A stretch of 44,376 bases of DNA, taken from IMG/VR virus record IMGVR_UViG_3300034736_000492, positions 1 through 44,376 of that record; one strand, given 5' to 3'. The translations under genes were made by a program, and so were the position numbers. This document shows, piece after piece, positions 22,801-44,253 of the stretch (position 1 is its first letter; every line of letters starts with the position of its first letter). The notes beneath the pieces are model-generated. The model was not told the DNA's origin, ran no database searches, and saw nothing but the letters and a program-made list of their open reading frames with translations. The stretch comes from a virus.

Positions 22801-25800
22801 AGCGAAATAGCAGAAAATTCTTTAGGTAGTCCTTTTGCTGCTCAAACAGATGTAGTTCCGGTATTTAGAGATGCAGATGTTCAAGTTATTGGCAACGCCG
22901 ACTCGGCGCTACGAGTAGTGACACTACTAGATTATGCTATTACATTAATTGATCAAGGCGACTCTTCTATAGAATCAATTACAATTACTGGCATTGCTTC
23001 TAATGTTATAACATCTGAAAATGCACATAATTTTACTATTGGAAGTGAACTTATAGTAAACTCAGGGTTTAATAACTTTACAAGTGATAACACTTACTTT
23101 ATTACATCCATCCCAACTTCTACAACGTTTACAGTATCAACTTCGTTTAATGGAGCAACACTTGTATTAACTGATGATTCAAATACAGAAAGCTTTATTA
23201 TTAAAAGCCGCAATCCGGATATTTCCGGAGTTACTGCTGTTATTAAACAACAAAATCTTAACTTAGCAGGGTCTAAATCACTGATTCAAACTAGAATCAC
23301 AACTTATCTTGCTGATAATTATCCAACGCTAGTATACAATGAAGCTAAGTGTTCACGAGATGTTGGGTTAATTGTTGATGCAATTGGCTACGATATGATG
23401 ACTGATAGTAACTATCGTACATTAGTAGCAGCAAATGCTTACTACAGAGGTGCTCAAGCAGACTTAGTACTTGGAGCACAGAAAACTGCTACTGTGCAAT
23501 CTTACAGAGAACTTAAAAATGCAATAGCTTCTTATATCGGAGCTTCAAAAATAACAGTAGCTCGTGCTAATAATTTAATGGATATTATCATTGGTATACT
23601 TGACAAAGGCGCTAACGAAACTCCAGAAACAGTAGGTACTGTTGCTTATTATAACAATGTCGAAGTTGCTAAGGGTGCAGAGATACTTAAAGCAAATAAA
23701 GACTTCTTATCAAATGAAGCAACTGCTTGGGTTACTAAGAGCTTCGGCGGCACTGTTACACAAGTATCAAACGGTGATAACACAATTACAACATCAGCAG
23801 CACATTACTTTATAATAGGCGATCCTGTTATATTTGGTGCAGACATTGATGAACTAACACCTGCAATTACTTACTATGTAAAAACAGTTCCAAGTGCTAC
23901 TACATTTACTGTTGCAGCAACATCCGGCGGCGCAGAAATAGTTATTACAACAGGCGGCTCAACTGCAAGTACAGTTACATACTCGTTTGATCCAGTAGCA
24001 TGCCGCAGAGATATGACTAGATATATTGATGCAATTGTATATGATTTACAATATCCAGGCAACCATCATGCAATTAGATCTTCAATATTATATCTAAATG
24101 CTATAGAAGGTTCAGAACGTTCAGACATGTTCTATGTACGTAACTCAACTGGTGTTCGTAATATGACAATAAGCGGATTACGTGGCAACCTAACTGAAGA
24201 AAATGAATTTGGAACAAGACGTCCAACAGCAGGTGCGTATGTATCACTTGATCCAGGTTTTGGACCATGGGATCGACAAGCTTGGATCACTAATAAATCT
24301 CCGTATATCCAAAACGTAACAACCTTTGGTGTTGGGTGTGTTGGTAATAAAATTGACGGCGCATTACACGCAGGCGGTAACCGATCAACTGTTAGTAACG
24401 ACTTTACACAAGTATTAAGTGACGGCATCGGCGTATGGTGTACAGGTAACAACTCATTAACAGAGCTTGTGTCTGTGTTTGCATACTACAATTATTCAGG
24501 ATACTTAGCTGACCTAGGTGGACGTATTCGTGCTACAAACGGTAACAGTTCGTATGGTACTTTTGGCACCATAGCAGAAGGCACTGACACTGGTGAAATA
24601 CCATTGTTCTCAAATGTTGACAACTTGTCACAAGAAGCGTTTATATCAGAAGTTATTACTGACGGTGATCAAGAAGTACTACGTTTTGAGTTTGATAACG
24701 CAGGACGTGACTACACTAATGCACAATACGCAATTAGCGGATCAGGCTTTAACGCAGCGACAGTTTTTGACGAAACACGAGATGGTGCAATATTTGAAAC
24801 ACGTTTAATTGACCTAGACAACGGCAACGGAACAGGCGGCGCTGATTATGTTACTGCTAAAAACGTTGCCCAAGGCGGTACAGTAATACAAGCAACTATT
24901 GCTGCTACTGATACTGCACTACTTGGTGCATACAACGGCATGCGTATACAAATCACAGCAGGATCAGGAGTTGGACAATATGCTAATATTTTATCATACA
25001 ATAATGGTCTTAAAGTTGCTAAAGTTTACAAAGATAGTTTTGAAAACTTAACTGTTACTGGAACAACTATAACTAGTAATGTACTAACTGTAGCTAACAC
25101 TGCTAGTTTATATGTAAACATGCCAATATACCTAAGTACAGCAATTAGTAACTTAGCTGCTAACACAGTTTACTATGTACTTGCAATTCCAAATACTACT
25201 ACATTTACTGTAAGTGCAACTGAAGGTGGATCAGTCATAGGGCTAACCACTACAACTGCACAAACTGTAACGTTGTATGCAGCAGGATGGGATCATGTTG
25301 TTCCCGGAACTGTAATTGCAGCTGGATTAGACTTAACATCAGGCTACACAATTGAGCCGCGTATTAAGTTTACAGCACCAGGATTTGCTACTACTGCAAC
25401 AACTACAAGCGGTACAGAAGCTATTAAAGCAGCAGCTTATGCTGATGATCTCTTTATTGCACTACAGTATGGCGGAACAGCAACTTATGCTTCTTCGACT
25501 GGCAAAACTTGGGCGGCAAGTGGCGCATTAAGTGCTAGTGCTAATTGGAATGACGTAGCATTTGGTGGCGGCAGCGGAGCAAAGGCATCAGTTGTAATCG
25601 GCGGCAGCGGCGGTAGCGGAGCAACGTTTACAGCTGAACTAGGCGAACTAAACAGCATTGGCTTGCCAGGACCAACTCAGGTTAAATCAATTACAGTTGT
25701 TGATGGCGGCAAAGGCTATAGTAGCCCTCCAACAATTACTATTACTGCAACAAACGGTGGTAGTGGCGCTACAGCAGTAGCTACAGTACTTAATGGATCA

Positions 25801-30430: not shown

Positions 30431-31207
30431 ATGGCAACTTACGATAGTTATAAAAAAATAGATGGCGCATCGATTGTTAACGGTACAGTACCCGAAGATG
30501 CACTTGGTACTGACGTACGACATAGAATGTGTACTAAATGGATAACCGGGGATCACTGTAGATGTAGCGCAGGATGCTGCTGCAACTGGACAGTACCTGG
30601 GTGTACTCGAAAGGCATTCTTTGAACTATGGGGTGCTGGCGGCAATGGCAGTGGAAACTGTAGTTGCAGTAGGTGTCATCACCATAAAGGTGCTGGCGGT
30701 GGAGCATACAATTCAAAAATGGTATCAACTGCACCAGGTTGTACATACCGAGTATGTGCAGGCGGAGTATACAGATGTTTAAGTCGCGAATGCTCTGCAT
30801 GTAATGGTTGCTTTAGTTATGTTTGCGGGTTTAATGCATGTAATTTATGTGCGCCTGGCGGGCATACTGGCTATGCAAACACTGACTGGACTCAATATTG
30901 CTTTAGTTGTTGGTCTTGTTGTTTACAGCCTGTTAACAACCAAGGTAACTTTGGTATGATAAATCATACTCCGCACTTTAGTGGAATATTTAACTGTCAC
31001 TGTCACCATCAGTATTTCCATCCTGCAAATGCACCATTCATGGGCGGTAACGTAACCACAGCAAACAACGTATGTTGGACACGTTGCGGATGTTGGATTG
31101 CACCCCCGGCTCATGGCGGCCAAAGCGGAAGTGCTTCTTACTGCGGCAGGTGTTGTGGTCAAGGCGGCACTGGTGGCCCTGGCGTAGTTAAAATAACGTT
31201 TACATAA
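30431..31207 (+). CDS. Cysteine-rich glycine-rich tail protein 1
   Basis: 258 residues with 31 cysteines. N-terminal MATYDSYKKIDGASIVNG resembles short fibre-attachment segments. Then comes a CRCSAGCCCNWTVP cluster, an ELWGAGGNGSG segment (the signature of phage glycine-rich domains), CSCSRCHHH, RVCAGGVYRCLSRECSACNGC, and a C-terminal CWTRCGCWIAPPAHGGQS...CGRCCGQGGTGG ending in the strand VVKITFT. Paired CxC and CxxC and several His suggest disulphides or metal binding, though neither is shown. First of three tandem paralogues, 10 bases before the next. A distal tail or adhesin tip is plausible by analogy with glycine-rich phage adhesins. Confidence 0.8.
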   Translation: MATYDSYKKIDGASIVNGTVPEDALGTDVRHRMCTKWITGDHCRCSAGCCCNWTVPGCTRKAFFELWGAGGNGSGNCSCSRCHHHKGAGGGAYNSKMVSTAPGCTYRVCAGGVYRCLSRECSACNGCFSYVCGFNACNLCAPGGHTGYANTDWTQYCFSCWSCCLQPVNNQGNFGMINHTPHFSGIFNCHCHHQYFHPANAPFMGGNVTTANNVCWTRCGCWIAPPAHGGQSGSASYCGRCCGQGGTGGPGVVKITFT

Positions 31208-32774
31208 GGATTAATAAATGGCAACTTATTCAAGTTATAAAAAAGTAGACGGATCGCAATTAGCATCTCAGACACTGTCTGATAATGATTTATCAGATAA
31301 TACACTAAACAATTTTGGTGTTAAATGGTTTTTTGGCATACCATGTAGATGTAGCCCTGGGTGCTGCTGTAATTGGACAGTGCCTGCCAACGTATGTCGA
31401 ATGACTATCGAATTATGGGGTGCTGGCGGCAACGGCAGTGGATCATGTAGTTGTAATAGATGTCACCATTTCCAGGCTGCATCTGGCGGAACATACAACA
31501 CTAAATCGCTTGCTACTAAAGGAGGCTGTACATATTCAGTATGTGCAGCTGGTGTATATAGATGCTATTCGAGAGAATGCTCTGGATGTAACGGGTGTAC
31601 TAGTTATGTAAATGGCTATAATTTAAGTGGATTTTGTGCTTGCGGCGGAACAACAGGCAGAGCTAACACAAGTTGGTCAACTGGGTGCTTTGGTACTATG
31701 CAATACTGCAGGGCGCCAGGAAATAACAACGGCGAGATGGCCATTGACCTTCCGCAACCAGGCTGGTCAACAGCGTCAGGCTATTGTCACTGTCACCCAC
31801 AAGAGATGCGCCAGGGTGCTGCACCGATAGTAAGCTCTTGGTCTTTCCAAGGTCTGCGCCAATGCTGGATAAAATGCGGCTGTTGGGCAGTGCCATATAC
31901 AGGCGGCGGCCAAAGTGCAATGAATACATTCTGTGGCAGGTGTTGTGGTCAAGGTGGCACAGGTGGCGCTGGTTTAGTTAGAATTACATACATTTAAGGA
32001 ATATTGAATGGCAAATTACTCAAGTTATAAAAAAGTGTCAGGCGCACAGGTAATAGATAAATCTATTACCTCAGACAAAATCGGAACAGGAGTTAGAGAC
32101 AACTTTTGTACTAAATGGTTTTATGGTATATCTTGTAGATGTAGTGCAGGGTGCTGTTGTTTATGGACTGTGCCTTCGTGTGTTAGACATACGAATTGGG
32201 AGATATGGGGTGCCGGCGGCAATGGCAACGGAGCGTGTAGTTGTAGTAGGTGTCATCATACTCAGGGCGCAGGTGGCGGCGCATATACTAGTAAAAGTAC
32301 GGCTACTAATGCAGGATGTACATATCGAGTATGCGCAGGTGGCGTATACAGATGTTTAAGTCGTGAATGCACTGCGTGTAATGGATGTACTAGTTATGTT
32401 TGTGGCTCAGGTATTAACGCATGCGCTTGTGGCGGCGATATGGGTCGAGCAAATACTTCTTGGACGAATATGTGCTATTCAACTACGCCATATTGTGTTC
32501 GACCAGGATGTGTAGGTACCACTGCTGGAGCAGACTTTGCAACATTTTCACATAACGGTGGCTTCCAAGCACAGTCTGGATATTTTTATCCAGGAAGTGC
32601 ATGTCACTGTTGGAAACACAACGGACAATCTGTTGGCGCACCTGGTTTAAGTTCCGGACATTATGAACAAAACTCAAACTACTGCTGGATACGTTGCGGA
32701 TGCTGGATTGCACCGTACGGACACGGCGGTCAAAGTGCAACATCTAACTATTGCGGCAGGTGTTGTGGTCAAGG
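31145..32774 (+). repeat. 20-nt block identical in all three Cys-rich genes
   Basis: The sequence GGCAGGTGTTGTGGTCAAGG is present at 31145-31164, 31935-31954 and 32755-32774, encoding GRCCGQG. Flanking codons differ, so conservation at third positions in this block suggests recent duplication or recombination among the copies. Confidence 0.75.
31218..31997 (+). CDS. Cysteine-rich glycine-rich tail protein 2
   Basis: 259 residues, 27 cysteines, TAAGGA upstream of ATG. The same frame of conserved blocks is present: CRCSPGCCCNWTVP, ELWGAGGNGSGSCSC, VYRCYSRECSGCNGC, and CWIKCGCWAVPYTGGGQS...CGRCCGQGGTGGAGLVRITYI. The middle (~135-215, ending YCHCHPQ and SFQGLRQ) is unlike the neighbours, so the paralogues share a scaffold with a variable central patch. 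It lacks several Cys present in copy 1, including the one just before TKW near the N-terminus and the one in the SYVCG motif. Confidence 0.8.
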   Translation: MATYSSYKKVDGSQLASQTLSDNDLSDNTLNNFGVKWFFGIPCRCSPGCCCNWTVPANVCRMTIELWGAGGNGSGSCSCNRCHHFQAASGGTYNTKSLATKGGCTYSVCAAGVYRCYSRECSGCNGCTSYVNGYNLSGFCACGGTTGRANTSWSTGCFGTMQYCRAPGNNNGEMAIDLPQPGWSTASGYCHCHPQEMRQGAAPIVSSWSFQGLRQCWIKCGCWAVPYTGGGQSAMNTFCGRCCGQGGTGGAGLVRITYI

Positions 32775-32817
32775 CGGCACTGGCGGTGGCGGCTTAGTTA
32801 AATTAAAATTTTATTAA
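32008..32817 (+). CDS. Cysteine-rich glycine-rich tail protein 3
   Basis: 269 residues, 30 cysteines. It conserves MANYSSYKKVSGAQVIDKS, CTKWFYGISCRCSAGCCCLWTVP, EIWGAGGNGNGACSCSRCHH, RVCAGGVYRCLSRECTACNGC and the CWIRCGCWIAPYGHGGQS...CGRCCGQGGTGG end. The central patch (~150-220) is the longest and most divergent of the three. It carries an extra GCVGTTAG segment and ACHCWKHN. It is followed 21 bases later by the probable assembly chaperone gene, a layout typical of tail-fibre loci. Confidence 0.8.
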   Translation: MANYSSYKKVSGAQVIDKSITSDKIGTGVRDNFCTKWFYGISCRCSAGCCCLWTVPSCVRHTNWEIWGAGGNGNGACSCSRCHHTQGAGGGAYTSKSTATNAGCTYRVCAGGVYRCLSRECTACNGCTSYVCGSGINACACGGDMGRANTSWTNMCYSTTPYCVRPGCVGTTAGADFATFSHNGGFQAQSGYFYPGSACHCWKHNGQSVGAPGLSSGHYEQNSNYCWIRCGCWIAPYGHGGQSATSNYCGRCCGQGGTGGGGLVKLKFY

Positions 32818-32838: not shown

Positions 32839-33555
32839 ATGGCAATGATATCAGTAGATTATACTTTTAATCTTCCAAACGAACCTTGTGTTGATCATGA
32901 GCAAACAGATGGCAATACTCGTACAGCTACATATGACGGCCCAGATACGATATTTTTAATTATTAATAACGAAACTGGCCTAGAAGAATGTGGCCCTGTA
33001 ACAGAAATTGAAAAAGCTGACGGACGTCCAGTACCAGATGGTTGTAGATATCTAGAAATAGATTGTATCACAAATCCACTAGTATGTGAGCTAAGGGCTC
33101 CTGTGCTAGATGAAGAACAAGAAGATTACACTTCAGATGCGAGACCACCAGGTGTTGTAGAAGTTGACGAACATCATGCAGTTTTCACTTATCAAACTCC
33201 GCTTAGTGTAACAGATGTATATGAACCGTTAGGAATAATAGTTGACAGTGACGATAATATTACACTAACGAAACGCTCTCCGTGTTGGTTAATTATGGGC
33301 GGCGACGGTCGTATGCCGACTTATGATGACGTTCGTAATAAACGCATGCAACTACTTAAAAATAGTGATAGTGAAATTACAGACGATATGCCAGCTGCTA
33401 TGAGACAACGGTGGTTAGACTATCGTCAACGATTGCGCGACTGGCCAAGTGTTATGGAAGCTTTAAATATTCCAGGAGAATTTGCATATAATATGGAACC
33501 AAATGATCCGGGCATGGATGAAGATCCGGATGACGGAACACTTTACACAATGTAA
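32839..33555 (+). CDS. Probable phage tail (fibre) assembly chaperone
   Basis: 238 residues, ATG preceded by AGGAG. The C-terminal part (~164-215), DVRNKRMQLLKNSDSEITDD followed by RQRWLDYRQRLRDWP, matches the pattern of phage tail assembly chaperones (R..RN.LL..SD......W..YRQ.LRD.P, the Phage_tail_APC type). The N-terminal two thirds are acidic and beta-like and not recognised. Placement directly after the three fibre-like genes and before a terminator fits a factor that helps fold or attach fibres. It may be a fusion of a fibre-capping part with the chaperone domain (inference). Confidence 0.7.
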   Translation: MAMISVDYTFNLPNEPCVDHEQTDGNTRTATYDGPDTIFLIINNETGLEECGPVTEIEKADGRPVPDGCRYLEIDCITNPLVCELRAPVLDEEQEDYTSDARPPGVVEVDEHHAVFTYQTPLSVTDVYEPLGIIVDSDDNITLTKRSPCWLIMGGDGRMPTYDDVRNKRMQLLKNSDSEITDDMPAAMRQRWLDYRQRLRDWPSVMEALNIPGEFAYNMEPNDPGMDEDPDDGTLYTM

Positions 33556-33694: not shown

Positions 33695-34726
33695 TTGACA
33701 AGATCTACAGCATTTTTTATTAATGGCGGCGCAGGTCGCGTATTAACTAGCATTCCGGCATTTGAACTTTACGAGAAAGAAAATCCAAATGACGACTTTA
33801 TTATTGTATGCGAAGGCGGAACTGACTTTTATAAAGGTCACCCTACGTTGCATGATCGGGCATATGATCATTGGCATAAAGGATTATTTGAAGAATATCT
33901 TAAAGATCGAATTTGTGTAACTCCTGAACCTTATCGAATCTGGGAATACTATAATCAAAAGTGTAGTCTTGCCCAAGCGTTTGATATTAATATTAATAAC
34001 AAAGGTGTACGAGCTCTTAATAAACCTACACTAGTTCTTAATAAGTCTGAAGTAGTACACGGTGCTAATATAGTAGACGAAATTAAACAAGTAACTGGGC
34101 ATGACAAAGTTCTAGTAATTCAGCCGTTTGGCAGGACTACAGAATCAGTTGGAAGCTTTATTATTGACCCTACTAGTAGGAGTTTTCAGTTAAACAATAT
34201 TGTTGATATTATTAATATTCTTAAAAAAGAATATGGCATTATTGTTATGAGCGAAATTCAAATACCTTTAGAAGAAAATGATAGTAATAAACATCCAGTA
34301 GCACAGCCTGAAATACAAGATATTAGAGCTTGGGCAGGCATTATCGAGTGTGCAGATCACTTTATGGGCTGCGACAGCTTAGGTCAACATATTGCCAAAG
34401 CACTTGACAAAACAGCAACTATTGTAACAGGTTCTACTTATCCTGTAAATATTAGCTATAATGACGATCCTAAATTTGATATTATTGACATCGGTGACGG
34501 TAAGCGTGTGTACTCTCCTATTAGACTTACTATGGAAGAACAGCAAGATCGCATGAATGATGAAACTATGGAAATGACAGAATTACAAATCAACCAAGTA
34601 TGTGATAGTGTACGTGCTGTGTTAGGTAAAAAGTCTACTAAAAAAACAACATTTCAGCCACTGAACCAAACTAAACTAATCCCAGGTAACTCGGCAATTA
34701 AACTGCCAGTTAAGGAGAAAAAATAA
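33695..34726 (+). CDS. GT9-like (heptosyltransferase-like) glycosyltransferase
   Basis: 343 residues. The start is TTG at 33695, chosen because AGGAG (33684-33688) sits six bases upstream and no ATG is well placed. The N-terminus FFINGGAGRVLTSIPAFELYEKEN matches the first strand and helix of GT-B family 9 enzymes. VLVIQPFGR (~140) resembles the nucleotide-side 'inPg' segment, and WAGIIECADHFMGCDSLGQHIAKAL (~214-238) resembles the family's A..f.g.DSG..H.A.AL motif. Family 9 enzymes move heptose from ADP-heptose to LPS core, which fits the heptose genes downstream. The match is remote, so another GT-B donor is possible. The Lys-rich tail is unusual. It overlaps the next start by one base (TAATG). 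Confidence 0.55.
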   Translation: MTRSTAFFINGGAGRVLTSIPAFELYEKENPNDDFIIVCEGGTDFYKGHPTLHDRAYDHWHKGLFEEYLKDRICVTPEPYRIWEYYNQKCSLAQAFDININNKGVRALNKPTLVLNKSEVVHGANIVDEIKQVTGHDKVLVIQPFGRTTESVGSFIIDPTSRSFQLNNIVDIINILKKEYGIIVMSEIQIPLEENDSNKHPVAQPEIQDIRAWAGIIECADHFMGCDSLGQHIAKALDKTATIVTGSTYPVNISYNDDPKFDIIDIGDGKRVYSPIRLTMEEQQDRMNDETMEMTELQINQVCDSVRAVLGKKSTKKTTFQPLNQTKLIPGNSAIKLPVKEKK

Positions 34727-36516
34727 TGAGTATATGGGTTGCTGGCATAACACGAGGGCATAACGCAGGTGTATGTTTACTTAAAGACGGTGAAATTGTA
34801 TTTGCGTTAGAAGAAGAACGTTTAAGCCGACATAAGTATGACGGCGGTCCGTTTGCTACTATGGTTAAAATCTTAGAATATACTGACAAACTAGATTACT
34901 TAGTTATTGCACACACGCAAGATTTAAACGAGTCGGCAGCACGTATTGACTTTACAGGCGATGATGTTTATACAGGATTAGCTAGAAAGCTAGGATTAAT
35001 CGACAATAGTCCTTCAGTAGATATTTATAAACATCCTCAAGTTGTAGATCTAAGCCACATGCACCACAAGTTACATGCGGCATGTGCATTTTATAGATCG
35101 GGGTTTGATGAAGCAGCGGCAGTTATCGTTGACGGTGCTGGAACATTTATTGATTTAAATATTCAAGAACAAAAAGAACTAGTATGGGAATTAGAATCTA
35201 TTTTTGACTGTAAATACCCTGCTAATTTTACAACTAAATGGAAACATTTAGGCGGACGCGGCCCTTGGCAAGGTGGCTACATATCTGATATGCCATCTGA
35301 TAAGTATGACGAACAAGGCACACACGAATGTATTATTGACGATACTGCTGGCATTGTAAAGGCATACGAAGCAGTAACACAGTATTGTGGCTGGAGTTCA
35401 ATCGAAGCAGGAAAAACTATGGGACTATTTCCATACGGCAAACCTAATGACAATATTCCGGAAATTTATACAGACGCCGGCGGCAAGTGGAGATCTTCAA
35501 ATAGACATTTAATTATTCCTACATATCCAAACGGCGCATTAGTAAATGAAGGTAGATACGAAGAATTAGAATCATCATCTACAGACGACCTTACATTGTT
35601 ACAGAATCGTCGAGACATGGCATATGCTATTCAGACAGAATCACAACAAGAAGTACTTAATGTTATTAGACAAGCCGTAGAAAAAACAGGCCATAATAAA
35701 GTTGTTATTAGTGGCGGCTATGGATTAAACTGTGTTGCTAACTATTGGTACTTGGAGCAGTTAAAAGACGAAGGCATTGAAATATATGTTGAGCCTATAT
35801 CCAATGATGCAGGCACTGCAATGGGTGCTGCATTGTATGCTCACTATAATATTACCGAAGACACAACGGTAAGAGACTTTGGCGAAAGCTTATATCTAGG
35901 TCCAACTTATACTTACTCTAGAGAAGACATTGAAGAAGTAGCTAACAAGTATAACGCAACAATTTCTAATACTTCAGTTAAAGAAGTAGTTGACACTATT
36001 CGTAATAAAAATATTGTAGCAATGTTTCAAGGTGCAGCTGAATCAGGGCCACGTGCTTTAGGCAACCGTACCTTGATGTTTGACCCAACATTAGAAGACG
36101 GCAAAGAATGGGTCAACCGTATTAAGCGCCGTGAATACTTTCGTCCGTTTGCAGGTAGTATTTTACATGAATACGCACACGAATGGTTTGAAATGCGTGG
36201 CTTAGAAGAAACACCGCATATGATGTACGCAATGAACTGTCAACCAGGTATTGCTGAAAAGATTCCTAGTATTATTCATATAGACGGCACATGTCGTATA
36301 CAAACAGTCAAGCAGCATCAAAACACTAGCTACTATTCAGTTATTGAAGAATTTTATAATCAAACAGGTGTTCCGATTATCTTTAATACTAGTTTTAACT
36401 TAGGTGGCGAACCATTAGTAGAGACACTAGACGATGCATTACGTACACTAGCTAATAGTGAAATTGAATATTTGTATTTGGCAGAACACGAGCTGTTATT
36501 AACGGTTAAAAATTAA
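34726..36516 (+). CDS. NodU/CmcH-type O-carbamoyltransferase
   Basis: 596 residues, normal family length. The N-terminal Kae1-like domain shows GHNAG (~14), EEERLSRHK (~29), and metal ligands H113, H117 and D136 in HHKLH and VIVDGAG. These enzymes make carbamoyl-adenylate from carbamoyl phosphate and ATP, then pass the carbamoyl group to a hydroxyl of a sugar or antibiotic. The C-terminal domain has SGGYGLNCVAN, EPISNDAGTAMGAAL, ESGPRALGNRTL and PIIFNTSFNLGGEP, all hallmarks of the family. All expected motifs are present, so it should be active. Substrate is unknown; the neighbouring heptose genes suggest a sugar acceptor. Confidence 0.92.
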   Translation: MSIWVAGITRGHNAGVCLLKDGEIVFALEEERLSRHKYDGGPFATMVKILEYTDKLDYLVIAHTQDLNESAARIDFTGDDVYTGLARKLGLIDNSPSVDIYKHPQVVDLSHMHHKLHAACAFYRSGFDEAAAVIVDGAGTFIDLNIQEQKELVWELESIFDCKYPANFTTKWKHLGGRGPWQGGYISDMPSDKYDEQGTHECIIDDTAGIVKAYEAVTQYCGWSSIEAGKTMGLFPYGKPNDNIPEIYTDAGGKWRSSNRHLIIPTYPNGALVNEGRYEELESSSTDDLTLLQNRRDMAYAIQTESQQEVLNVIRQAVEKTGHNKVVISGGYGLNCVANYWYLEQLKDEGIEIYVEPISNDAGTAMGAALYAHYNITEDTTVRDFGESLYLGPTYTYSREDIEEVANKYNATISNTSVKEVVDTIRNKNIVAMFQGAAESGPRALGNRTLMFDPTLEDGKEWVNRIKRREYFRPFAGSILHEYAHEWFEMRGLEETPHMMYAMNCQPGIAEKIPSIIHIDGTCRIQTVKQHQNTSYYSVIEEFYNQTGVPIIFNTSFNLGGEPLVETLDDALRTLANSEIEYLYLAEHELLLTVKN

Positions 36517-36547
36517 TCAATATTAATAGCAACAGAAAGGACATTAA

Positions 36548-37186
36548 ATGTTAATTAACGGAAAAGAATCTAGTAATCTATCTGAGTATGATTTATCAAA
36601 AGATCAAATGATAGTAATCGACGACATGTTTCCGCAATGGATGATTGACTATATTCATAATCAAGTTTTTAAAACCTATAGCTGGACATATGGTCACACT
36701 AGTAATTACCACGAAGATCCGTTTTATGATGTAGGCGCAGATCCAAATTGGACTGAAGTACCGGCATTTAAACAACAAATTTTCCCTCCAGAGAGTCCTA
36801 ATGCACAAGATAGTTGCTGGCAAATGGTTTACAATGCAGTTGCATCATTAATTCCGTTTGAACTTGAAATAGGCGAAATACTTGTTAACGGACAGCAATG
36901 GATTCATAATACAGTTGAACACACTGACTGTGAATGCGACAACGGAATTAGTTGGTTGTACTATGCTAATAGAGAGTGGAAGGAAGAATGGGGAGGCGAA
37001 ACCGTTATTAAATTAGGCGGCGAATGGAAAAAAGTTTATCCTAAGCCAGGTCGTATATTTTTATTTAAAGGAAACATTCCCCATCATGGATTGCCACCAA
37101 ATGATTCTTACAAAGGATTACGGGCAACGTTAGTATATAAAACAATGAGAAAAATTCCATTACCGACTAGGAAATTTAAAATATGA
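36548..37186 (+). CDS. 2OG-Fe(II) oxygenase, P4H-like
   Basis: 212 residues; AAAGG lies seven bases before the ATG. The double-stranded beta-helix core shows H125-T-D127 (in VEHTDCECD), a WGGET turn, PGRIFLFKGNIPHHG with distal H179/H180, and R192 in GLRATLVYK for 2-oxoglutarate. Such enzymes hydroxylate protein side chains or small molecules using Fe(II), O2 and 2-oxoglutarate. The stop overlaps the next ATG (ATGA). Substrate unknown; a sugar or a fibre protein are both possible. Confidence 0.85.
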   Translation: MLINGKESSNLSEYDLSKDQMIVIDDMFPQWMIDYIHNQVFKTYSWTYGHTSNYHEDPFYDVGADPNWTEVPAFKQQIFPPESPNAQDSCWQMVYNAVASLIPFELEIGEILVNGQQWIHNTVEHTDCECDNGISWLYYANREWKEEWGGETVIKLGGEWKKVYPKPGRIFLFKGNIPHHGLPPNDSYKGLRATLVYKTMRKIPLPTRKFKI

Positions 37187-37713
37187 GACTAGACATTTTT
37201 TCAATACCGATCTTTGTAGACAAAGTTGACTTAGATAAAATTGATATTACAGAAGATAAATTTGAAGAGTATTGGTTAAGTAAAACTCCTACGTCTATGC
37301 CGTGTGATGTGAAAATTTCACCATCTACATTTGAATACTTGTCAACAATAGTTGCTCGTAATATTGACGAATTAGGCCCTTATGCTAATCCAAGATTTGG
37401 GCAAATATGGCGCAATAAGTATTCTAAAACTGACTACCAAGATAGTCACATCCATCCTCGTAGTCAGTGGAGTTTTATTATCTATGAAACTGTAAAAGAA
37501 TCCAAAACAAATTTTATTAATCCGTCTAGAAGTTTAATAATTAATCAGTTAGAGTTTTATCCAGAACATTTACCGACTGAGTTTACACCTACACTAGGCC
37601 CTGGAGACATGCTTATATTTCCTAGTTTCTTAGAACATTTTGTTTTAGCAGGCAACGAAGGCACTACTATATCAGGAAATGTATATTTAGATCCACCGCC
37701 AAACGACGAATAA
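37183..37713 (+). CDS. Putative 2OG-Fe(II) oxygenase, 2OG-FeII_Oxy_5-like
   Basis: 176 residues, translationally coupled by a four-base overlap. Core motifs: IWRNKYSKTDYQDSHIHP with H89-x-H91 in place of H-x-D, and PGDMLIFPSFLEH with distal H152. The usual Arg that holds 2-oxoglutarate about ten residues on is not seen (GTTISGNVYL), so activity or cofactor may differ. Likely member of the marine phage oxygenase family by fold; function not assignable. Confidence 0.65.
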   Translation: MRLDIFSIPIFVDKVDLDKIDITEDKFEEYWLSKTPTSMPCDVKISPSTFEYLSTIVARNIDELGPYANPRFGQIWRNKYSKTDYQDSHIHPRSQWSFIIYETVKESKTNFINPSRSLIINQLEFYPEHLPTEFTPTLGPGDMLIFPSFLEHFVLAGNEGTTISGNVYLDPPPNDE

Positions 37714-37719
37714 TTTATC

Positions 37720-37748
37720 TTGACAATTACTCTAAAAGATAGTATAAT
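37720..37748 (+). promoter_or_regulatory. Perfect consensus sigma70 promoter for hldE
   Basis: TTGACA (37720-37725), a 17-base spacer and TATAAT (37743-37748) match the consensus exactly. The seventh base after the -10 is 37755, the A of the ATG, so transcription would start on or within a base or two of the start codon. Confidence 0.85.
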
Positions 37749-37754
37749 ATAAAT

Positions 37755-38897
37755 ATGAAAGTATTAGTTATCGGCGATGTAATAATCGACAAATATATCT
37801 ATGGCACTTCAGAACGTTTAAGTCCTGAGGCTCCTGTGCCTGTGGTTAAACACTTACACGAAGTTGAAACACTTGGTGGTGCAGGACTTGTTTATGAAAA
37901 CTTAAAAAGTTTAGGTGTTAATGTAACACTAATGGAATCTGATCATGGATACAGAAGTGTTAAGACTAGAGTCATTTGTGACGGACATTATGTTACACGC
38001 ATTGACAATGATAAACGTGCAAGCGGTAACGCAGTATTAGCTGATGTATTGTCTAATGACTTTTCGCAATACGAATATGTAATACTCAGTGATTATGACA
38101 AAGGTGTATTAGATAATGCAAAAGAAATTATTGCACACATTAATACATTTGGTTGTAAAGTACTTGTAGATCCAAAGAGACCTGCTGGTTACTACGAAGG
38201 TGCTTGGCTTATTAAACCTAATATGCTTGAAGAATCACAGTACGGATTTGGACAACATCATTGGAACTGGATTGTTACAGATGCCAAAGGACCAGTACGA
38301 GCACGTATTAACAAAGTTATGTACACAGTTGAACCTGAGCAAGTTGAGGTCAGTGACGTTACAGGCGCTGGCGATTGTTTCTTAGCAGCATTTGTATATG
38401 GATTAACAAAGGGCTACGAGCACAAACGCTGTTTAGAGCTTGCTGTCAAAGGTGCCACTGAAGCAGTTAAACACGTAGGCACACACACGCTCACTGTAAG
38501 CGATCTAGAAGAACGCATAGTGTTTACTAACGGATGCTTTGACATACTACACACGGGTCATTTTGAGCTACTAGCCGAAGCAAAATCGCTGGGCGGAAAA
38601 CTAATAGTAGGTATAAATTCAGATGACAGTGTTAGACGGTTTAAAGGTCCTAAGCGTCCTATTAACAATGTAAACAACCGTAAAAAGCAATTAGAATTAT
38701 TACCGTGGGTAGACGAAGTAATTGTGTTTGACGAAGACACTCCGTACAGATTAATTAAAGAGGTAGTTCCGCACGTTATTGTAAAAGGCGGTGATTACAC
38801 AGTAGAACAAGTTGTAGGGCATGATTTAGCTGATGTGCATCTTGTGCCTACAGTTGAAGGTTATTCAACAACACAGATTATTGAGGCAAGCAAATGA
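37755..38897 (+). CDS. hldE: HldE-type bifunctional heptose-7-phosphate kinase / heptose-1-phosphate adenylyltransferase
   Basis: 380 residues against ~477 in E. coli. The N-terminal ribokinase-type domain (1-~250) begins VLVIGDVIIDKYIYG...RLSPEAPVPVV, has LGGAG (~40) and ends in DVTGAGDCF with catalytic D207. It phosphorylates D-glycero-D-manno-heptose 7-phosphate at C1. The C-terminal nucleotidyltransferase domain (~253-380) has FTNGCFDILHTGH (HTGH 266-269) and YSTTQII, and transfers AMP to heptose 1-phosphate. The kinase domain is shortened in two places relative to E. coli: after LKSLGV and after the PNMLE segment. No ribosome site precedes the ATG. The last codon overlaps hldD by four bases. 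Confidence 0.9.
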   Translation: MKVLVIGDVIIDKYIYGTSERLSPEAPVPVVKHLHEVETLGGAGLVYENLKSLGVNVTLMESDHGYRSVKTRVICDGHYVTRIDNDKRASGNAVLADVLSNDFSQYEYVILSDYDKGVLDNAKEIIAHINTFGCKVLVDPKRPAGYYEGAWLIKPNMLEESQYGFGQHHWNWIVTDAKGPVRARINKVMYTVEPEQVEVSDVTGAGDCFLAAFVYGLTKGYEHKRCLELAVKGATEAVKHVGTHTLTVSDLEERIVFTNGCFDILHTGHFELLAEAKSLGGKLIVGINSDDSVRRFKGPKRPINNVNNRKKQLELLPWVDEVIVFDEDTPYRLIKEVVPHVIVKGGDYTVEQVVGHDLADVHLVPTVEGYSTTQIIEASK

Positions 38898-39700
38898 AAA
38901 TATTAATTACAGGGCATGAAGGATTTATAGGCAAAAATCTAGCACCGTTTCTTGATAAAGACCATGAGTTATTTGGGTATGAATGGAATTTAGATTCACA
39001 ACCTGATGTTACTGGATACGATTGGGTAATACATTTAGGTGCAATTAGTGCAACTACAGAACTTGATATTGATAAAGTAATGTTACAAAACTATGAATTT
39101 TCAAAATGGTTATTTAATGAGTGCAATACTAAAGGTGTAAATCTACAGTATGCAAGTAGCGCAAGTGTATACGGGACTAATATCAATTTTAACGAAGATG
39201 CACCTAAACAACCTCAAAGTTATTATGCAACTAGTAAGTATTTGTTTGATCGCTGGGTAATGCAGCAGACACATAATATCATAGTTCAAGGGTTTCGATA
39301 TTTTAATGTCTACGGACCCCACGAAGATCATAAAGGTGATCAAGCAAGCCCTATAACTAAGTTTTTTAAACAAGCAAAGACTGGCACTATTAAACTATTT
39401 GAAGATAGTGACAAATACAAACGAGACTTTGTATATGTAGGCGACTGCTGTAACATACATCGTTATATGCTAACTTCGCCCGAAACTGGTATATTTAATA
39501 TTGGAACAGGTGTAGCAACTAGCTTTCAGACTATTGCAGATATAGTTGCAAAAAAGTTTAATGCTAAGATTGAATACATACCAATGCCTGAAGCACTTAA
39601 TGGGCAGTATCAAGAATATACTTGTGCAGACATAAAAAGATTAAGTACTGTTGTAAATATTAATTTTACTACTCCGGAGGAATTTATTAATGGACGTTAA
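38894..39700 (+). CDS. hldD: HldD-type ADP-heptose 6-epimerase
   Basis: 268 residues against ~310 in E. coli. Short-chain dehydrogenase fold: NAD(P) loop GHEGFIG (~7-13), SSASVYG, and Tyr111-x3-Lys115 in YYATSK. Family-specific text is strong: GFRYFNVYGPHEDHKGDQAS, KLFEDSDKYKRDFVYVGD, GIFNIGTG, IEYIPMPEALNGQYQEYT. It converts ADP-D-glycero-D-manno-heptose to the L-glycero form used in LPS. Shortening lies mainly in the N-terminal third and the C-terminal helix. It overlaps hldE by four bases and the next gene by 11. Confidence 0.88.
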   Translation: MKILITGHEGFIGKNLAPFLDKDHELFGYEWNLDSQPDVTGYDWVIHLGAISATTELDIDKVMLQNYEFSKWLFNECNTKGVNLQYASSASVYGTNINFNEDAPKQPQSYYATSKYLFDRWVMQQTHNIIVQGFRYFNVYGPHEDHKGDQASPITKFFKQAKTGTIKLFEDSDKYKRDFVYVGDCCNIHRYMLTSPETGIFNIGTGVATSFQTIADIVAKKFNAKIEYIPMPEALNGQYQEYTCADIKRLSTVVNINFTTPEEFINGR

Positions 39701-40211
39701 CACAGTTGTTGTAGACAATTTTCTACCAAATCCAGATCTAGTACGAGAACAAGCACTTAAATTAGATTTTTTTATAACAGGCGGCTTTCCCGGAACTCGG
39801 TCAATGGCATGTGATGCTGATTATCAGCAGTATATAAATACTAAAATTTCAGCTATATTAGGTATCGATATTGACGCTTGGGTCCTAGATAGTTTTTCCT
39901 TTCAATTATGTTATGAAGGTGCAGACACTTGGGTACACAAAGATACATCAAACTGGGCCGGAGTGTTATATCTAACACCAGATGCTCCTTTAGACTCCGG
40001 CACCGGATTGTATCAAGAATCTACCGACGGCAGTGACGGCTTCGACTTAGTAACAGCGTTAGGCAATGTTTATAATCGACTAGTATTATATCGAGGAGAT
40101 ATGCTACACAGTAGTATGTTACCTGGATTTGGAACAACTCCAGAAACAGGTAGACTGACACAAGTTTTCTTTTTTAATTCAGATCAAAAGCCAGGAAAAG
40201 GTTACGAATGA
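39690..40211 (+). CDS. DUF6445-like putative 2OG-Fe(II) oxygenase
   Basis: 173 residues; GGAGGA lies eight bases before the ATG inside hldD. It opens VVVDNFLPNPDLVREQAL and PGTRS, then WVHKDTSNWAGVLYLTP (H83, D85), GTGLYQE, DMLHSS with H140, and GRLTQVFFF with R155. This H-x-D...H...R order is that of 2OG-Fe(II) oxygenases, and the text fits the DUF6445 group. Substrate unknown. Coupled to hldD and to the cupin downstream (ATGA overlap). Confidence 0.75.
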   Translation: MDVNTVVVDNFLPNPDLVREQALKLDFFITGGFPGTRSMACDADYQQYINTKISAILGIDIDAWVLDSFSFQLCYEGADTWVHKDTSNWAGVLYLTPDAPLDSGTGLYQESTDGSDGFDLVTALGNVYNRLVLYRGDMLHSSMLPGFGTTPETGRLTQVFFFNSDQKPGKGYE

Positions 40212-40570
40212 CACGTCTTACTGGCGAAGTAGAAAAGGGATGGGGTAGCGAAACAATTTTTGCTACTAATGACTTATATTGTGGCAAGCTTTTAAACTTT
40301 AATCAAGGCGCAAAGTTTAGTATGCATATGCACAAAGAAAAAGATGAAACTTGGCATGTGCTAAGTGGCAAGTTTGAAGTGCATTGGATTAACACTAAAG
40401 ATGCATCAACCGGTAGCCAGGAACTATTAATTGGCGACACCTGGCACAATCCTCCAATGTTCCCGCATCAAGTAATATGTATAGAAGAAGGCACATTATT
40501 AGAAGTTAGTACACCTGATAGTGTTGAGGATAATTATCGAGTTGGCAAAGGTAATAGTCAAGATGCTTGA
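40208..40570 (+). CDS. Small cupin protein with intact metal site
   Basis: 120 residues. EKGWGSETIF opens a single cupin domain. Motif 1 is canonical: H40-x-H42-x4-E47-x6-G54 (SMHMHKEKDETWHVLSG). Motif 2 shows PPMFPHQV with the fourth ligand. The form resembles stand-alone cupins related to mannose-6-phosphate isomerase and sugar-nucleotide isomerases; the exact reaction is not clear. Embedded between oxygenase genes in the heptose operon. A paralogue without the metal site lies at 43450-43797. Confidence 0.8.
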   Translation: MTRLTGEVEKGWGSETIFATNDLYCGKLLNFNQGAKFSMHMHKEKDETWHVLSGKFEVHWINTKDASTGSQELLIGDTWHNPPMFPHQVICIEEGTLLEVSTPDSVEDNYRVGKGNSQDA

Positions 40571-41108
40571 AGATAATTTTTATTTATTAAATGGAAGATG
40601 GATTGCAGAAACATCTGTTGAATGTTATTCAAATTATGAAAAATTATTTAATATTACTCAGCCTGACGGCAGTGCTGCTACATCAACAGTAAATGGCCAT
40701 CAACAAGGACATTCTATAGTAGAAACTAAAGAGTTAGCTGATGAGATAATGTCAACTACAAATGCTATGTTAGCTAATGCAAACGTTTTATGTAAAATTA
40801 ATAATCACTTAACCACCTGGAGTATACAATATAATCCAGGTGGATGGTCTGGACTTCACTGTCATAATCATGGCAATACTGGCGCAACTGCCGTAGTATA
40901 CTTTGATGAACCTAGTAACGGCGACAATGATGAAGGCGCACTTTATGCTGTATTAGCAGACGAGCATGGAGATAATTACACAAATTTATGGCACGGCGCT
41001 CCGGGTAAATTAATAGTAATGGATGCTAGAATTTGGCACGGTGTGTATCCGACTATCAACAACCGAAGAGTGCTAGTGTTTGACTATGAAGTAGAATATA
41101 ATGGGTAA
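40563..41108 (+). CDS. Putative 2OG-Fe(II) oxygenase
   Basis: 181 residues. The ATG at 40563, inside the cupin's last codons (eight-base overlap), is chosen over the longer frame from 40521. The core has GGWSGLHCHNHGN (H99, H101, H103), a TAVVYFDEP strand, PGKLIVMDARIWHGVYP with distal H159, and RRVLVFDYE with R168/R169. These positions fit the double-stranded beta-helix oxygenase pattern, though the acidic metal ligand is not obvious. Reaction unknown. Confidence 0.65.
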   Translation: MLEDNFYLLNGRWIAETSVECYSNYEKLFNITQPDGSAATSTVNGHQQGHSIVETKELADEIMSTTNAMLANANVLCKINNHLTTWSIQYNPGGWSGLHCHNHGNTGATAVVYFDEPSNGDNDEGALYAVLADEHGDNYTNLWHGAPGKLIVMDARIWHGVYPTINNRRVLVFDYEVEYNG

Positions 41109-41922
41109 AACATTGTTTATAGGTTGTAGCCATAGTATGGGATATAATGATTTTAATTTAAATACTCCAACAAACACTTGGCAAGAAAATAACTATGCAG
41201 AAATTTATTCTCAAATAAATAACAAGGAAGTAATAGTAATGGCAAGTGCTGGCTGCGGAAATAGAGTGTTTCCTAATTTTTTAGCCTATGCATTAAAGAA
41301 TCACAATGACATTGACGAAGTGTTTGTACAGTCAACATATTGGGGTAGATTTCCAGTAGCTATTAATCCAGACTTAAACGAGCAAGAGATATTTCCTTTA
41401 GACTTTTTTATTGAGAAAGAACCTAAGATGCATGAAAATGTACAACACTATAGTTTGGGCCTATCACAGCAAGGAAAATATTTAGAACAATATCTTAAAC
41501 CAGAAGTTGATGATTATGATAAAATGCCTTACATCAAAGACACTATTCCATTTCGTAGCGAACCTGATATTCGGAGAAGTTCAAAGGCATATATTCAGAT
41601 GTGGCATTATAATCAGACTCATTTAGAACAACAAGATTATATGAAAGATATGACGTTTATTGATATGCTATGCAACGATAAACAAATTCCAGTTTACTTA
41701 TGGAATATTAACAACAGATGTTTTATACCAAAAGAATTGAATGGGTTTTATACAAATCTAAAACAGACAACTATTGCAAATACTGATGCTATTAGTTTTC
41801 TAGGATCACATCTAGAAACTGAAAAAGTTGATTCAGAACATTACAACTACCATGTACATAAATTAATCGCAGAAAAATATATACCTTATATAAGAGAGAA
41901 CACACATGACCATAAATTATGA
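41101..41922 (+). CDS. SGNH-hydrolase-like protein
   Basis: 273 residues, overlapping the previous gene by eight bases. It starts TLFIGCSHSMG, the marine-phage variant of the GDS nucleophile block (Ser10 or Ser12). ASAGCGNR (~49-56) could supply an oxyanion residue, and DSEHYNYHVH near the C-terminus a D..H pair. SGNH enzymes add or remove acyl groups on sugars, which fits the operon. The match is motif-level only, and a non-catalytic member is possible. Confidence 0.6.
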   Translation: MGKTLFIGCSHSMGYNDFNLNTPTNTWQENNYAEIYSQINNKEVIVMASAGCGNRVFPNFLAYALKNHNDIDEVFVQSTYWGRFPVAINPDLNEQEIFPLDFFIEKEPKMHENVQHYSLGLSQQGKYLEQYLKPEVDDYDKMPYIKDTIPFRSEPDIRRSSKAYIQMWHYNQTHLEQQDYMKDMTFIDMLCNDKQIPVYLWNINNRCFIPKELNGFYTNLKQTTIANTDAISFLGSHLETEKVDSEHYNYHVHKLIAEKYIPYIRENTHDHKL

Positions 41923-42484
41923 CGGAATAGAAGAATATAAAAATATATACGAAAAAGAATTTTGTGATGAAATAATTCGCCACTTTGAAGTAATGTCTGA
42001 ACGAGACGTAACTTACAAACAAGACAACATTATTAAAAATCAAGACGAACGGTTAGTTTTTGATTGGGCACATACTCAAGGCCAATATCATTATGATTTT
42101 TCGTTGTGTAATTACTTTTACAAAAAGCTACATGAAGTATATACAACAGAATATATGGAAAAATATAGTATGCTTAAAAATAGTGAACAGCATAGTGCAA
42201 AAGGTATGAGTGTGCAGCGTAATAATCCACACCAGGGGTATCATACCTGGCATCAAGAAAGTGCTGATATCGGGTCAAGTACTCGGGTAGTAAATTATAT
42301 GTTATATTTAAATGATGTTGAAGAAGGCGGCGAAACAGAATTTTTATATCAAGGTAAAAAGATTAAACCAGAGGTAGGAAAACTAGTTATATTTCCTACT
42401 AACTTTGTATATCCGCATAGAGGAAATCCTTTATATAAAGGCAGCAAGTATATTATTACAGGATGGTATACCTATGACAAATAA
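41906..42484 (+). CDS. 2OG-Fe(II) oxygenase, prolyl-4-hydroxylase-like
   Basis: 192 residues, 17-base overlap with the preceding gene. The catalytic core is clear: YHTWHQE (H116-x-E118 in the H-x-D position), LYLNDVEEGGETEF, IKPEVGKLVIFP, distal H171 in YPHRGNP, and K181 in GSKYIITGW as 2-oxoglutarate anchor. This is the P4H arrangement, with Glu replacing Asp. Phage P4H-like proteins may hydroxylate fibre proteins or host factors; no target is evident. Overlaps gmhB by 11 bases. Confidence 0.85.
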   Translation: MTINYDGIEEYKNIYEKEFCDEIIRHFEVMSERDVTYKQDNIIKNQDERLVFDWAHTQGQYHYDFSLCNYFYKKLHEVYTTEYMEKYSMLKNSEQHSAKGMSVQRNNPHQGYHTWHQESADIGSSTRVVNYMLYLNDVEEGGETEFLYQGKKIKPEVGKLVIFPTNFVYPHRGNPLYKGSKYIITGWYTYDK

Positions 42485-43070
42485 ACATAGAATTGTTACA
42501 TCAGGTGCGCCACCGGGTAGTCAGTGTGTAATTGGAATTGATCGCGATGGCGTCATTAATCGAGACCTAGGAACATATGTAACACGACCATCTAGTTTTG
42601 AACCAATACCGGGCAGCTTAGAAGCAATTGCTGAATTACGGCGTAAAGGACATAGTATTGTTATCATTACTAATCAAGGCGGAATTGAAAAGGGGTTGAT
42701 GACCTCTGACGATGTAGATAGTATTCATAATCACATGCTTGATTTATTAGGAACAGCCGGATGTTCAAGTATCGATGCTATCTATTACAGCGAAAGCAGT
42801 AATAAAAAAGATTACTACGCAAAACCTAATATAGGCATGTTTAAGCGATGCCAGGATGAATTTAAACATATTAAATTTAACCAAGGGTTTTATGTTGGTG
42901 ATAAATTAAGTGATCTAAAGGCTGCTATTAAAATAGGAGCAAGACCAGTCTTAGTAAGAACCGGATACGGGCTCGAGACTGAACAACAGCTAAATAAGTT
43001 TACATATAAAGACATTAAGCGAAAAGCGTATGTTTTTGATTCTTTAGCTGACTTTGTAGAGCAGTTATAA
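42474..43070 (+). CDS. gmhB: GmhB-type heptose-1,7-bisphosphate phosphatase (HAD)
   Basis: 198 residues from the ATG at 42474, chosen because the longer frame from 42405 lies in the oxygenase gene. HAD motifs: D23-x-D25 in GIDRDGVINRD, Thr in IITNQGGIEKG, Lys in AKPNIGMF, and GDKLSDLKAA. The opening and the PIPGSLEAIAEL segment are as in GmhB, which removes the C7 phosphate from heptose 1,7-bisphosphate. The Cys/His zinc loop of E. coli GmhB is replaced by a shorter YYSESSNKKDYY stretch without Cys. It supplies the step between the two HldE activities. Confidence 0.85.
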   Translation: MTNKHRIVTSGAPPGSQCVIGIDRDGVINRDLGTYVTRPSSFEPIPGSLEAIAELRRKGHSIVIITNQGGIEKGLMTSDDVDSIHNHMLDLLGTAGCSSIDAIYYSESSNKKDYYAKPNIGMFKRCQDEFKHIKFNQGFYVGDKLSDLKAAIKIGARPVLVRTGYGLETEQQLNKFTYKDIKRKAYVFDSLADFVEQL

Positions 43071-43423: not shown

Positions 43424-43451
43424 AAAAAAGCTCCTTTATGGAGCTTTTTTT
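43424..43451. terminator. Bidirectional intrinsic terminator
   Basis: AAAAAAGCTCC (43424-43434) pairs with GGAGCTTTTTT (43440-43450) around TTTAT. A T-run follows on the plus strand and the A-run supplies one on the minus strand. It sits between convergent genes and overlaps the minus-strand stop. Confidence 0.9.
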
Positions 43452-43797
43452 ATGACGACAATTTATAAAAGTCTTCTGGATCGTTAATATTGCTAGTTTC
43501 TGATAGTGAACTATTTTCACTAAGTGATTCTAAACCACAGGGCATTAGTGCAGGCACATGGAATACTATGCCCTGGCTTAATTCTCTTTCAAATAGTTCC
43601 CCAGTTTTAGTATCAATCCATCTAATATTAAATGTTCCTGCATTTATAAACCAAGACTTAGTAGTGTTTTTATGGAACCCAATAGGTGTCTTACTATTTG
43701 CTTTTTCAAACACCCTTATCTTAGATGTATAAAATTCAGTTTCGATCCATGTAATATCATAGCCATAATCTGTTTTATTAATATTGTTATCTGACAT
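43450..43797 (-). CDS. Degenerate cupin paralogue
   Basis: 115 residues on the minus strand. The span IRVFEKANSKTPIGFHKN, then WFINAGTFNIRWIDTKTGE and FHVPALMPCGLES, aligns with the cupin at 40208-40570 (shared F.v.WI.TK, L..G...H.P, P, final ED.Y). Of the four metal ligands only the second His remains: the others read Gly, Lys and Cys. It is therefore probably non-catalytic, a binding or regulatory cupin, or it uses another chemistry. The start overlaps the Nudix stop by one base. Confidence 0.7.
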   Translation of the reverse strand: MSDNNINKTDYGYDITWIETEFYTSKIRVFEKANSKTPIGFHKNTTKSWFINAGTFNIRWIDTKTGELFERELSQGIVFHVPALMPCGLESLSENSSLSETSNINDPEDFYKLSS

Positions 43798-44240
43798 TAG
43801 TCTACCTCAATTAAATCTATAACCTTAAATACTGTTTCTAATTTATTTAAGTTTATTTTATTTTGTAATGTATTTTTTAATCCGTGGTGCAGTGGCTTTG
43901 GCCAATTGCCAAATTCTACCCAGGCATATCCGTTGTGCTCTTCATTTAGAACTGGAATAAATTCTTCATTAATAACACACAAGTACGTATGAAAGTGAAA
44001 CCGGCTATCATTACTAACAAAGGTTTCTAACGGCATTGTTTTCTTAATGGAAATTTCTCCAATCTCCTCAAAAATTTCTCGTGTTAACCCTTCCCACGGA
44101 GTTTCAAAATCTTCGTTAGTGCCGCCTACTAGTCCCCATAAATTTCCAGACCGGCCTCTTGCTCTATGTAAGAACAAAAATCTTTTAGTATTGAGGGAAT
44201 AGACAATTGCACCGCTGCAATTAATTTTAGTTGTTTTCAT
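43797..44240 (-). CDS. Nudix hydrolase
   Basis: 147 residues from the ATG at 44240; a longer frame to 44297 would need a TTG inside the upstream gene. The Nudix box is complete at 40-61: G40-x5-E46-x7-R54-E55-I-x-E58-E59-x-G61. RFLFLHRARG and LWGLVGG before it are typical. The family cleaves nucleoside diphosphates linked to another group, such as sugar nucleotides or NTPs. No residue fixes the substrate. Given ADP-heptose genes nearby on the other strand, an ADP-sugar is one option (inference). No strong ribosome site is seen. Confidence 0.88.
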   Translation of the reverse strand: MKTTKINCSGAIVYSLNTKRFLFLHRARGRSGNLWGLVGGTNEDFETPWEGLTREIFEEIGEISIKKTMPLETFVSNDSRFHFHTYLCVINEEFIPVLNEEHNGYAWVEFGNWPKPLHHGLKNTLQNKINLNKLETVFKVIDLIEVD

Positions 44241-44253
44241 ACTAATACTTATT

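Follow-up and report, generated by a model that had tools for sequence, protein, structure and literature searches.

The virus record IMGVR_UViG_3300034736_000492 (positions 1 to 44,376; this whole stretch of 44,376 nucleotides is referred to here as the window) carries an operon at 33695-43070 that we read, with a probability of about 0.55, as encoding a complete route to ADP-heptose, coupled with a glycosyltransferase and a sugar-modifying enzyme that together would decorate the phage tail. The operon is encoded entirely on the + strand, as are all the features described below unless otherwise indicated, with intergenic gaps of 0-40 bp or short overlaps, and its genes, all intact, code for a GT9-type transferase, an O-carbamoyltransferase, 2-oxoglutarate (2OG) oxygenases, a fused HldE, HldD, a cupin and a GmhB-like phosphatase. 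The heptose cassette was found again in more than 60 viral contigs, so that the operon is far beyond chance, and the observed combination of heptose, glycosyltransferase and carbamoyltransferase genes is confirmed as real. A packed operon with HldE, HldD, GmhB and a carbamoyltransferase had been proposed from the sequence letters alone (the original prediction), and was borne out by profile searches and PDB matches; protein families, residues and folds all support the heptose and carbamoylation reading, together with the identities of HldE, HldD, the GmhB-like protein and the carbamoyltransferase and the GT9 fold of the transferase.

The predicted HldE (37755..38897; NF008454 282.6 bits, and TIGR02199 159.5 bits for the adenylyltransferase domain) is a short heptose-7-phosphate kinase domain (about residues 1-250) fused to a heptose-1-phosphate adenylyltransferase domain (about residues 251-380). 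The protein keeps the segments SPEAPVPVV, DVTGAGD, FDILHTGH, VKGGDY and GYSTT, and thus both the PfkB GAGD motif and the HxGH and STT motifs of the bifunctional enzyme. HldE of the STTR5 type (CDP/UDP-heptose) has Arg at position 5 of (F/L)XXGXSTT, counted as in PMC11461863, and Tyr occupies this position in the window protein (TVEGYSTT). The adjacent gene codes for a predicted ADP-heptose 6-epimerase, HldD (38894..39700; TIGR02197 3e-73, 246.6 bits versus a cut-off of 274.6; 1eq2 E 9e-50), in which alignment to the Escherichia coli enzyme revealed the NAD motif GxxGxxG, the Ser/Tyr/Lys residues and the second catalytic Lys, within DHKGDQAS at the position of E. coli K178. The last gene, with a probable start at ATG 42474 rather than 42405, encodes a GmhB-like HAD phosphatase (42474..43070; NF006506 3.8e-40, 137.4 of 178 bits; 4pnh 6e-23; GmhB 2gmw 8e-18), whose best named matches are GmhB proteins. 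It retains the HAD DxD, Lys and GDxxxD motifs, the Cys/His residues of the E. coli GmhB zinc loop are not retained, and it is present in 52 of 61 HldE cassettes. Two observations count against assigning these functions outright: internal deletions leave the HldE kinase domain about 65 residues shorter than that of E. coli, and the scores of HldE (282.6 bits for the whole protein versus an NCBIfam cut-off of 521), HldD and GmhB are all under the NCBI equivalog cut-offs. The three proteins are homologues of the named enzymes, for which identical function is plausible, not certain.

According to the original prediction only GmhA was missing, and could be supplied by the host or by the flanks. The absence itself was upheld, since no SIS_2 (GmhA) domain was detected in the window, the rest of the record outside the operon included, in five complete cyanophage genomes or in 15 related IMG/VR records. 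Overlooked, however, was a cupin gene inside the operon (40208..40570; PF01050 MannoseP_isomer 1.9e-6, above cut-off), and an outside source of the isomerase is probably wrong, because GmhA is lacking from whole relatives and the in-operon cupin replaces GmhA in archaeal operons. The cupin has the invariant residues H40, H42, E47 and H87, which make up a metal site, and its structure model has a predicted local distance difference test (pLDDT) value of 93.8. D-lyxose isomerases and sugar-isomerase relatives (2y0o, 7nzo) were among its profile and fold matches, so that it shows both the metal site and the isomerase similarity of the phosphomannose isomerase-like cupins, although this similarity is weak and not specific. 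The substrate of GmhA is a ketose phosphate and its product an aldose phosphate of manno configuration, and cupin-type phosphomannose isomerases do likewise with a sugar one carbon shorter, a chemistry that by analogy fits the cupin.

In viruses the cupin accompanies the pathway closely. It was found in 60 of the 61 HldE cassettes whose downstream sequence was long enough, a frequency equal to that of HldD, and it was retained in nine HldE cassettes without GmhB. Among named phage records, the marine ones holding most of HldE also carry the cupin, and none of these marine records is among the 13 with GmhA. Cyanophage T4-GC306, which is labelled phosphoheptose isomerase, was considered as a GmhA and dropped, as it is a mini HAD protein of 107-114 amino acids whose cellular relatives match EcbF-BcbF capsule phosphatases. 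The PHROG label cysteine dioxygenase for the cupin was also rejected in favour of the Pfam cupin assignment. A second cupin gene on the - strand (43450-43797) codes for a paralogue with 84 bits to the profile of the first, in which several metal-site residues are lost (e.g. His87 to Cys) and which is probably not catalytic; weak cupin matches also occur on the minus strand in two related loci (L116, L118).

The strongest indication of cupin function came from cells. The cupin alignment was used for a genome scan, followed by a survey of the phylum of one archaeal hit (L191) for genomes with an HldE-type kinase. The scan revealed an archaeal operon with the order cupin-HldD-kinase-GmhB-HldE-C (L179) and kinase-cupin fusions (L191, L182). 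GmhA-HldD-kinase-GmhB+HldE-C operons (L204, L210, L222) are paralleled by cupin-HldD-kinase-GmhB+HldE-C operons (L203, L205), a GmhA-kinase-HldE-C operon (L220) by cupin-kinase-HldE-C (L206), and kinase+GmhA fusions (L212, L217) by kinase+cupin fusions (L218, L225, L226, L240, L191). Counted by adjacency or fusion, GmhA was present in 18 cases, the cupin in 10 and both in none. Genome-wide, a full SIS/GmhA protein without the cupin occurs in 21 of the 41 kinase-bearing genomes and the cupin without such a protein in 12, while one genome has both and seven have neither. In the sole genome that has both (G035), the SIS protein scores 117 bits versus a GmhA cut-off of 209 bits, and in another genome with HldE and no SIS protein (G161) the cupin is located on a different contig, not beside HldE. 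Since the cupin takes the place of GmhA in operons and fusions and the two nearly exclude each other, it is probably a non-orthologous sedoheptulose-7-phosphate isomerase, with which the phage pathway would be complete; the support for this function is comparative genomics. Phage and archaeal cupins are likely orthologous within the family, although the deep branches of the cupin tree are poorly resolved.

Two metagenome-assembled genomes (MAGs) labelled Euryarchaeota TMED129 (L174) and Thaumarchaeota ASW8 (L176) contain clusters of cyanophage-type HldE-C, HldE-N, mini HAD and cupin genes, which reflect either horizontal exchange or viral contigs. The same phage locus was found on two contigs (L169, L170) from a single Neomarinimicrobiota MAG; these are probably viral contigs that were binned with it.

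Several results weigh against the isomerase assignment. The strongest fold matches of the cupin were oxalate decarboxylases, and its metal ligands are common to many cupins with other activities. The exclusion between SIS and cupin proteins (Fisher p 6e-5, 41 genomes) was calculated ignoring relatedness, and could be affected by kinship and possible MAG incompleteness; the seven genomes without either protein are archaeal. In a Bacteroidota family, the cupin was found at high score in one of 78 genomes, which is kinase-positive and GmhA-negative, and five other kinase-bearing genomes of the family lack both GmhA and the cupin, so this family is only weakly informative as an independent second clade. 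In Bdellovibrionota, the kinase-cupin fusion was found in the seed MAG only. Related cupins are also fused to NTP-transferases and NeuB, or stand alone in Marinoscillum; the wider cupin family is not confined to heptose. On these grounds, the cupin might be a sugar enzyme of a different kind or have an accessory role, with heptose-7-phosphate provided by the GmhA of the host, as would be consistent with the functional diversity of cupins, their presence outside heptose operons and the kinase-bearing genomes that have neither protein. We consider this unlikely, because the cupin swaps exactly with GmhA in position and in fusion, is nearly mutually exclusive with it across genomes, and is kept even where GmhB has been lost.

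The first gene of the operon (33695..34726; phrog_8954 E 3e-143) encodes a predicted GT-B fold glycosyltransferase, a divergent relative of GT9. No Pfam or NCBIfam match was obtained with the window protein alone, but PF01075 (heptosyltransferase) matches 17 of its 44 homologues (best 3.6e-6), and the hhalign comparison of the family with GT9 gave an E value of 5e-6. The AlphaFold (AF2) model (pLDDT 87) was most similar by Foldseek to TibC (4rap, 1.7e-9), followed by a GT9 protein (3tov), WaaC and WaaF, and these four were the only proteins among the first 30 matches (E 1.7e-9 to 1.5e-7, template modelling scores of about 0.41-0.58). With a DSxGxH motif in the C-lobe as well, the GT9-like transferase of the original prediction holds. 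TibC is a heptosyltransferase with ADP-heptose as donor and adhesin proteins as acceptors (PMC4358343), and a phage enzyme of this kind would likewise attach heptose from ADP-heptose to a protein. On the opposite side, the N-lobe catalytic Asp of GT9 (Asp13 in WaaC, Asp110 in TibC) is replaced by Arg15, invariant in the 44 homologues, a correspondence drawn from a remote profile alignment (hhalign). In addition, unlike TibC and other BAHT proteins, the phage transferase begins at the GT-B N-lobe, with no N-terminal beta-barrel, and has no four-Cys iron finger, Cys90 being its sole invariant Cys. Its activity may be altered, given the replaced Asp and the absence of the iron finger and beta-barrel; it is no BAHT member, although it may act in the manner of TibC.

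The following gene (34726..36516) codes for a putative O-carbamoyltransferase of the TobZ/NodU/CmcH type with both domains (PF16861 1.8e-55, PF02543 1.7e-27; 7xb6 1e-56, TobZ 3ven 4e-42) and the HxxxH metal motif, present as HHKLHA. It shares its family and both domains with TobZ and WapO-type enzymes, with an acceptor that in the phage is putative only; WapO, itself a putative enzyme, carbamoylates heptose O7 in the Pseudomonas lipopolysaccharide (LPS) core (PMC8005017).

The target of the sugar is suggested by the neighbourhood. Proteins encoded 5' of the operon resemble baseplate and tail-fibre proteins of T4-like marine phages, and in relatives the operon is flanked by tail fibres and by gp13/gp14 neck genes, a position that corresponds to the host recognition cluster of these phages (PMC7029224). 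Linkage was counted in 89 loci with the transferase, taking as denominators the loci with enough sequence. A tail-fibre gene was upstream of the transferase in 41/41 loci and the tail chaperone in 66/75, Cys-rich proteins were linked in 51/57, and the carbamoyltransferase was downstream in 81/84. The heptose cassette is variable in position, being inside the operon (window), convergent (L119, L121, L125) or at a different site in the record. The transferase and carbamoyltransferase are therefore fixed to the tail genes, with the sugar supply joined to them. Many fragments, in contrast, have the glycosyltransferase, carbamoyltransferase and GmhB without HldE, and among the larger records HldE is found elsewhere in some, not all, which speaks against the main reading.

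In the proposed mechanism, the metal-dependent cupin (40208-40570) would convert sedoheptulose-7-phosphate into D-glycero-D-manno-heptose-7-phosphate, the HldE kinase domain would produce the 1,7-bisphosphate, GmhB the 1-phosphate, the HldE adenylyltransferase domain ADP-D,D-heptose, and HldD ADP-L,D-heptose. The GT9-type transferase (33695-34726) would then put heptose on tail proteins encoded just upstream, perhaps on residues that the neighbouring 2OG oxygenases have hydroxylated, and carbamoylation of the sugar would fall to the TobZ-like enzyme. Such a decorated tail would change adsorption, stability or host range. From gene order only we infer that tail proteins accept the sugar, that heptose is the group carbamoylated, and what the oxygenases do. 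Possible acceptors are a giant tail-fibre-like protein (16879..28062), with relatives in S-SSM7, P-SSM2 and S-CAM1 annotated as tail fiber protein, and three tandem Gly/Cys-rich proteins (open reading frames at 30431..32817) located between the tail fibre and a tail assembly chaperone-like (APC) gene (32839..33555; PF16778 1.3e-6). These three paralogues have about 260 amino acids each, with 10-12% Cys and 15-17% Gly, an unusual composition for virion proteins.

Of the four products listed in the original prediction, decoration of the virion tail is thus favoured, LPS is less likely, DNA is unsupported, and masking of ADP-heptose signals is implausible, since vertebrates are the only animals or other organisms from which ALPK1 is known (PMC11573728). 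Remodelling of the host LPS or surface glycan during infection, for example to exclude co-infecting phages, would agree with the LPS substrates of the GT9 relatives WaaC and WaaF, with the carbamoyl-heptose known from the Pseudomonas LPS core (PMC8005017) and with the interpretation given to LPS genes and glycosyltransferases in the host recognition cluster of pelagimyophages (PMC7029224). It is nevertheless doubtful, as the transferase is strictly linked to tail fibre and chaperone and no flippase, ligase or polymerase was seen in the module. Phage Sf-FS3, moreover, carries the module and grows on Synechococcus WH8102, whose LPS contains neither heptose nor 3-deoxy-D-manno-oct-2-ulosonic acid (Kdo) according to the literature, which makes the LPS core an unlikely target for this phage. 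This heptose-free LPS, the strict association with tail-fibre and chaperone genes and the TibC-like fold favour tail decoration over LPS or DNA. That the product is a small nucleotide sugar for secretion or signalling, or a DNA decoration, is very improbable even though phage glycosyltransferases can glycosylate DNA and NDP-heptoses act as agonists of signalling in vertebrates (PMC11461863), since the module has no DNA-modification gene, ALPK1 is not known outside vertebrates, and the enzymes are co-conserved with tail genes.

The remaining operon genes code for predicted 2OG-Fe(II) oxygenases and an SGNH/GDSL-like protein. The oxygenases are ox1 (36548..37186; FlmC-like, PF13640 1.5e-7, NF052475 FlmC 4e-15, below cut-off), ox2 (37183..37713; PF13759 7e-11), the putative ox3 (40563..41108; phrog_81 1.6e-7, start inferred from the frame) and ox4 (41906..42484; PF13640 3e-15), together with a DUF6445 protein that is probably 2OG-oxygenase-like (39690..40211; PF20043 6e-13). 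The PHROG labels DNA endonuclease V and minor coat protein were rejected, as the Pfam assignments are 2OG oxygenase and DUF6445. The SGNH/GDSL-like protein (41101..41922) has no Pfam match, a GCSHS start motif and conservation in homologous loci, and could be a sugar esterase. A NUDIX hydrolase gene on the - strand (43797-44297), kept in relatives beside the heptose cassette and gp13/gp14, possibly encodes an ADP-sugar hydrolase. The tail-linked operon of relatives also includes, beside the transferase and oxygenases, flavin-dependent (tryptophan-halogenase-like) proteins (L114 13523-15034, L143 14361-15842, L151 16469-17938, L168 16708-18183 and SSSM7_125 of S-SSM7, L081), identified by eye except for the annotated SSSM7_125, which suggests a wider tail modification.

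A megablast search of named phages with the operon gave no match. The same tail-linked module is present in cyanophages P-SSM2, S-SSM7, S-CAM1, S-CAM3 and Sf-FS3 (T4-GC 302-308), with the same order of tail fibre, small proteins, glycosyltransferase (phrog_8954) and carbamoyltransferase, followed by the heptose genes, the cupin and the epimerase. In cyanophages hldE is in two parts, of which the C part precedes the other, and the mini HAD (T4-GC306) occupies the phosphatase slot, whereas the window has a fused hldE, a GmhB-like HAD and more oxygenases. T4-GCs 304, 305, 307 and 308 were recorded as co-occurring LPS genes in 2010 (PMC3037559), and the gene set, sequenced in cyanophages since P-SSM2, is not new in outline. 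The archaeal operons of Woesearchaeota and relatives share the order cupin-HldD-kinase-GmhB-HldE-C (e.g. L179/L207, L203, L205) but are cellular, have WaaF-like transferases and in some cases use GmhA. Four of the five activities of the classical Gram-negative ADP-L,D-heptose pathway (GmhA, HldE, GmhB, HldD) have homologous proteins in the phage, the first step being assigned by our proposal to a cupin instead of a SIS-fold GmhA.

The new findings are that these phages have a GmhB-like phosphatase, that the cupin is the likely isomerase, that T4-GC306 needs another label, and that the tail-linked transferase has a fold like that of TibC. In 2024, functional heptose enzymes of viruses were reported (Tang et al.), the phosphatase being absent in viruses according to statements in a commentary (PMC11461863), and the GmhB-like gene adds this phosphatase to viral heptose pathways. 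Two misleading labels are corrected as well, phosphoheptose isomerase for T4-GC306, which is a HAD protein, and cysteine dioxygenase for the cupin. The literature search found no paper on a cupin-type sedoheptulose-7-phosphate isomerase. The broader proposal, that the cupin defines a new isomerase class replacing GmhA in archaea and marine phages and that the pathway yields carbamoylated heptose on tail fibres, a virion glycosylation system undescribed in the literature searched, is tentative, and we rate it as somewhat short of an even chance. If true, it would supply the first enzyme for phage and archaeal ADP-heptose synthesis, and the abundant tail-linked carbamoyltransferase and oxygenase genes of marine phages would serve to decorate the host-binding apparatus and not the host LPS.

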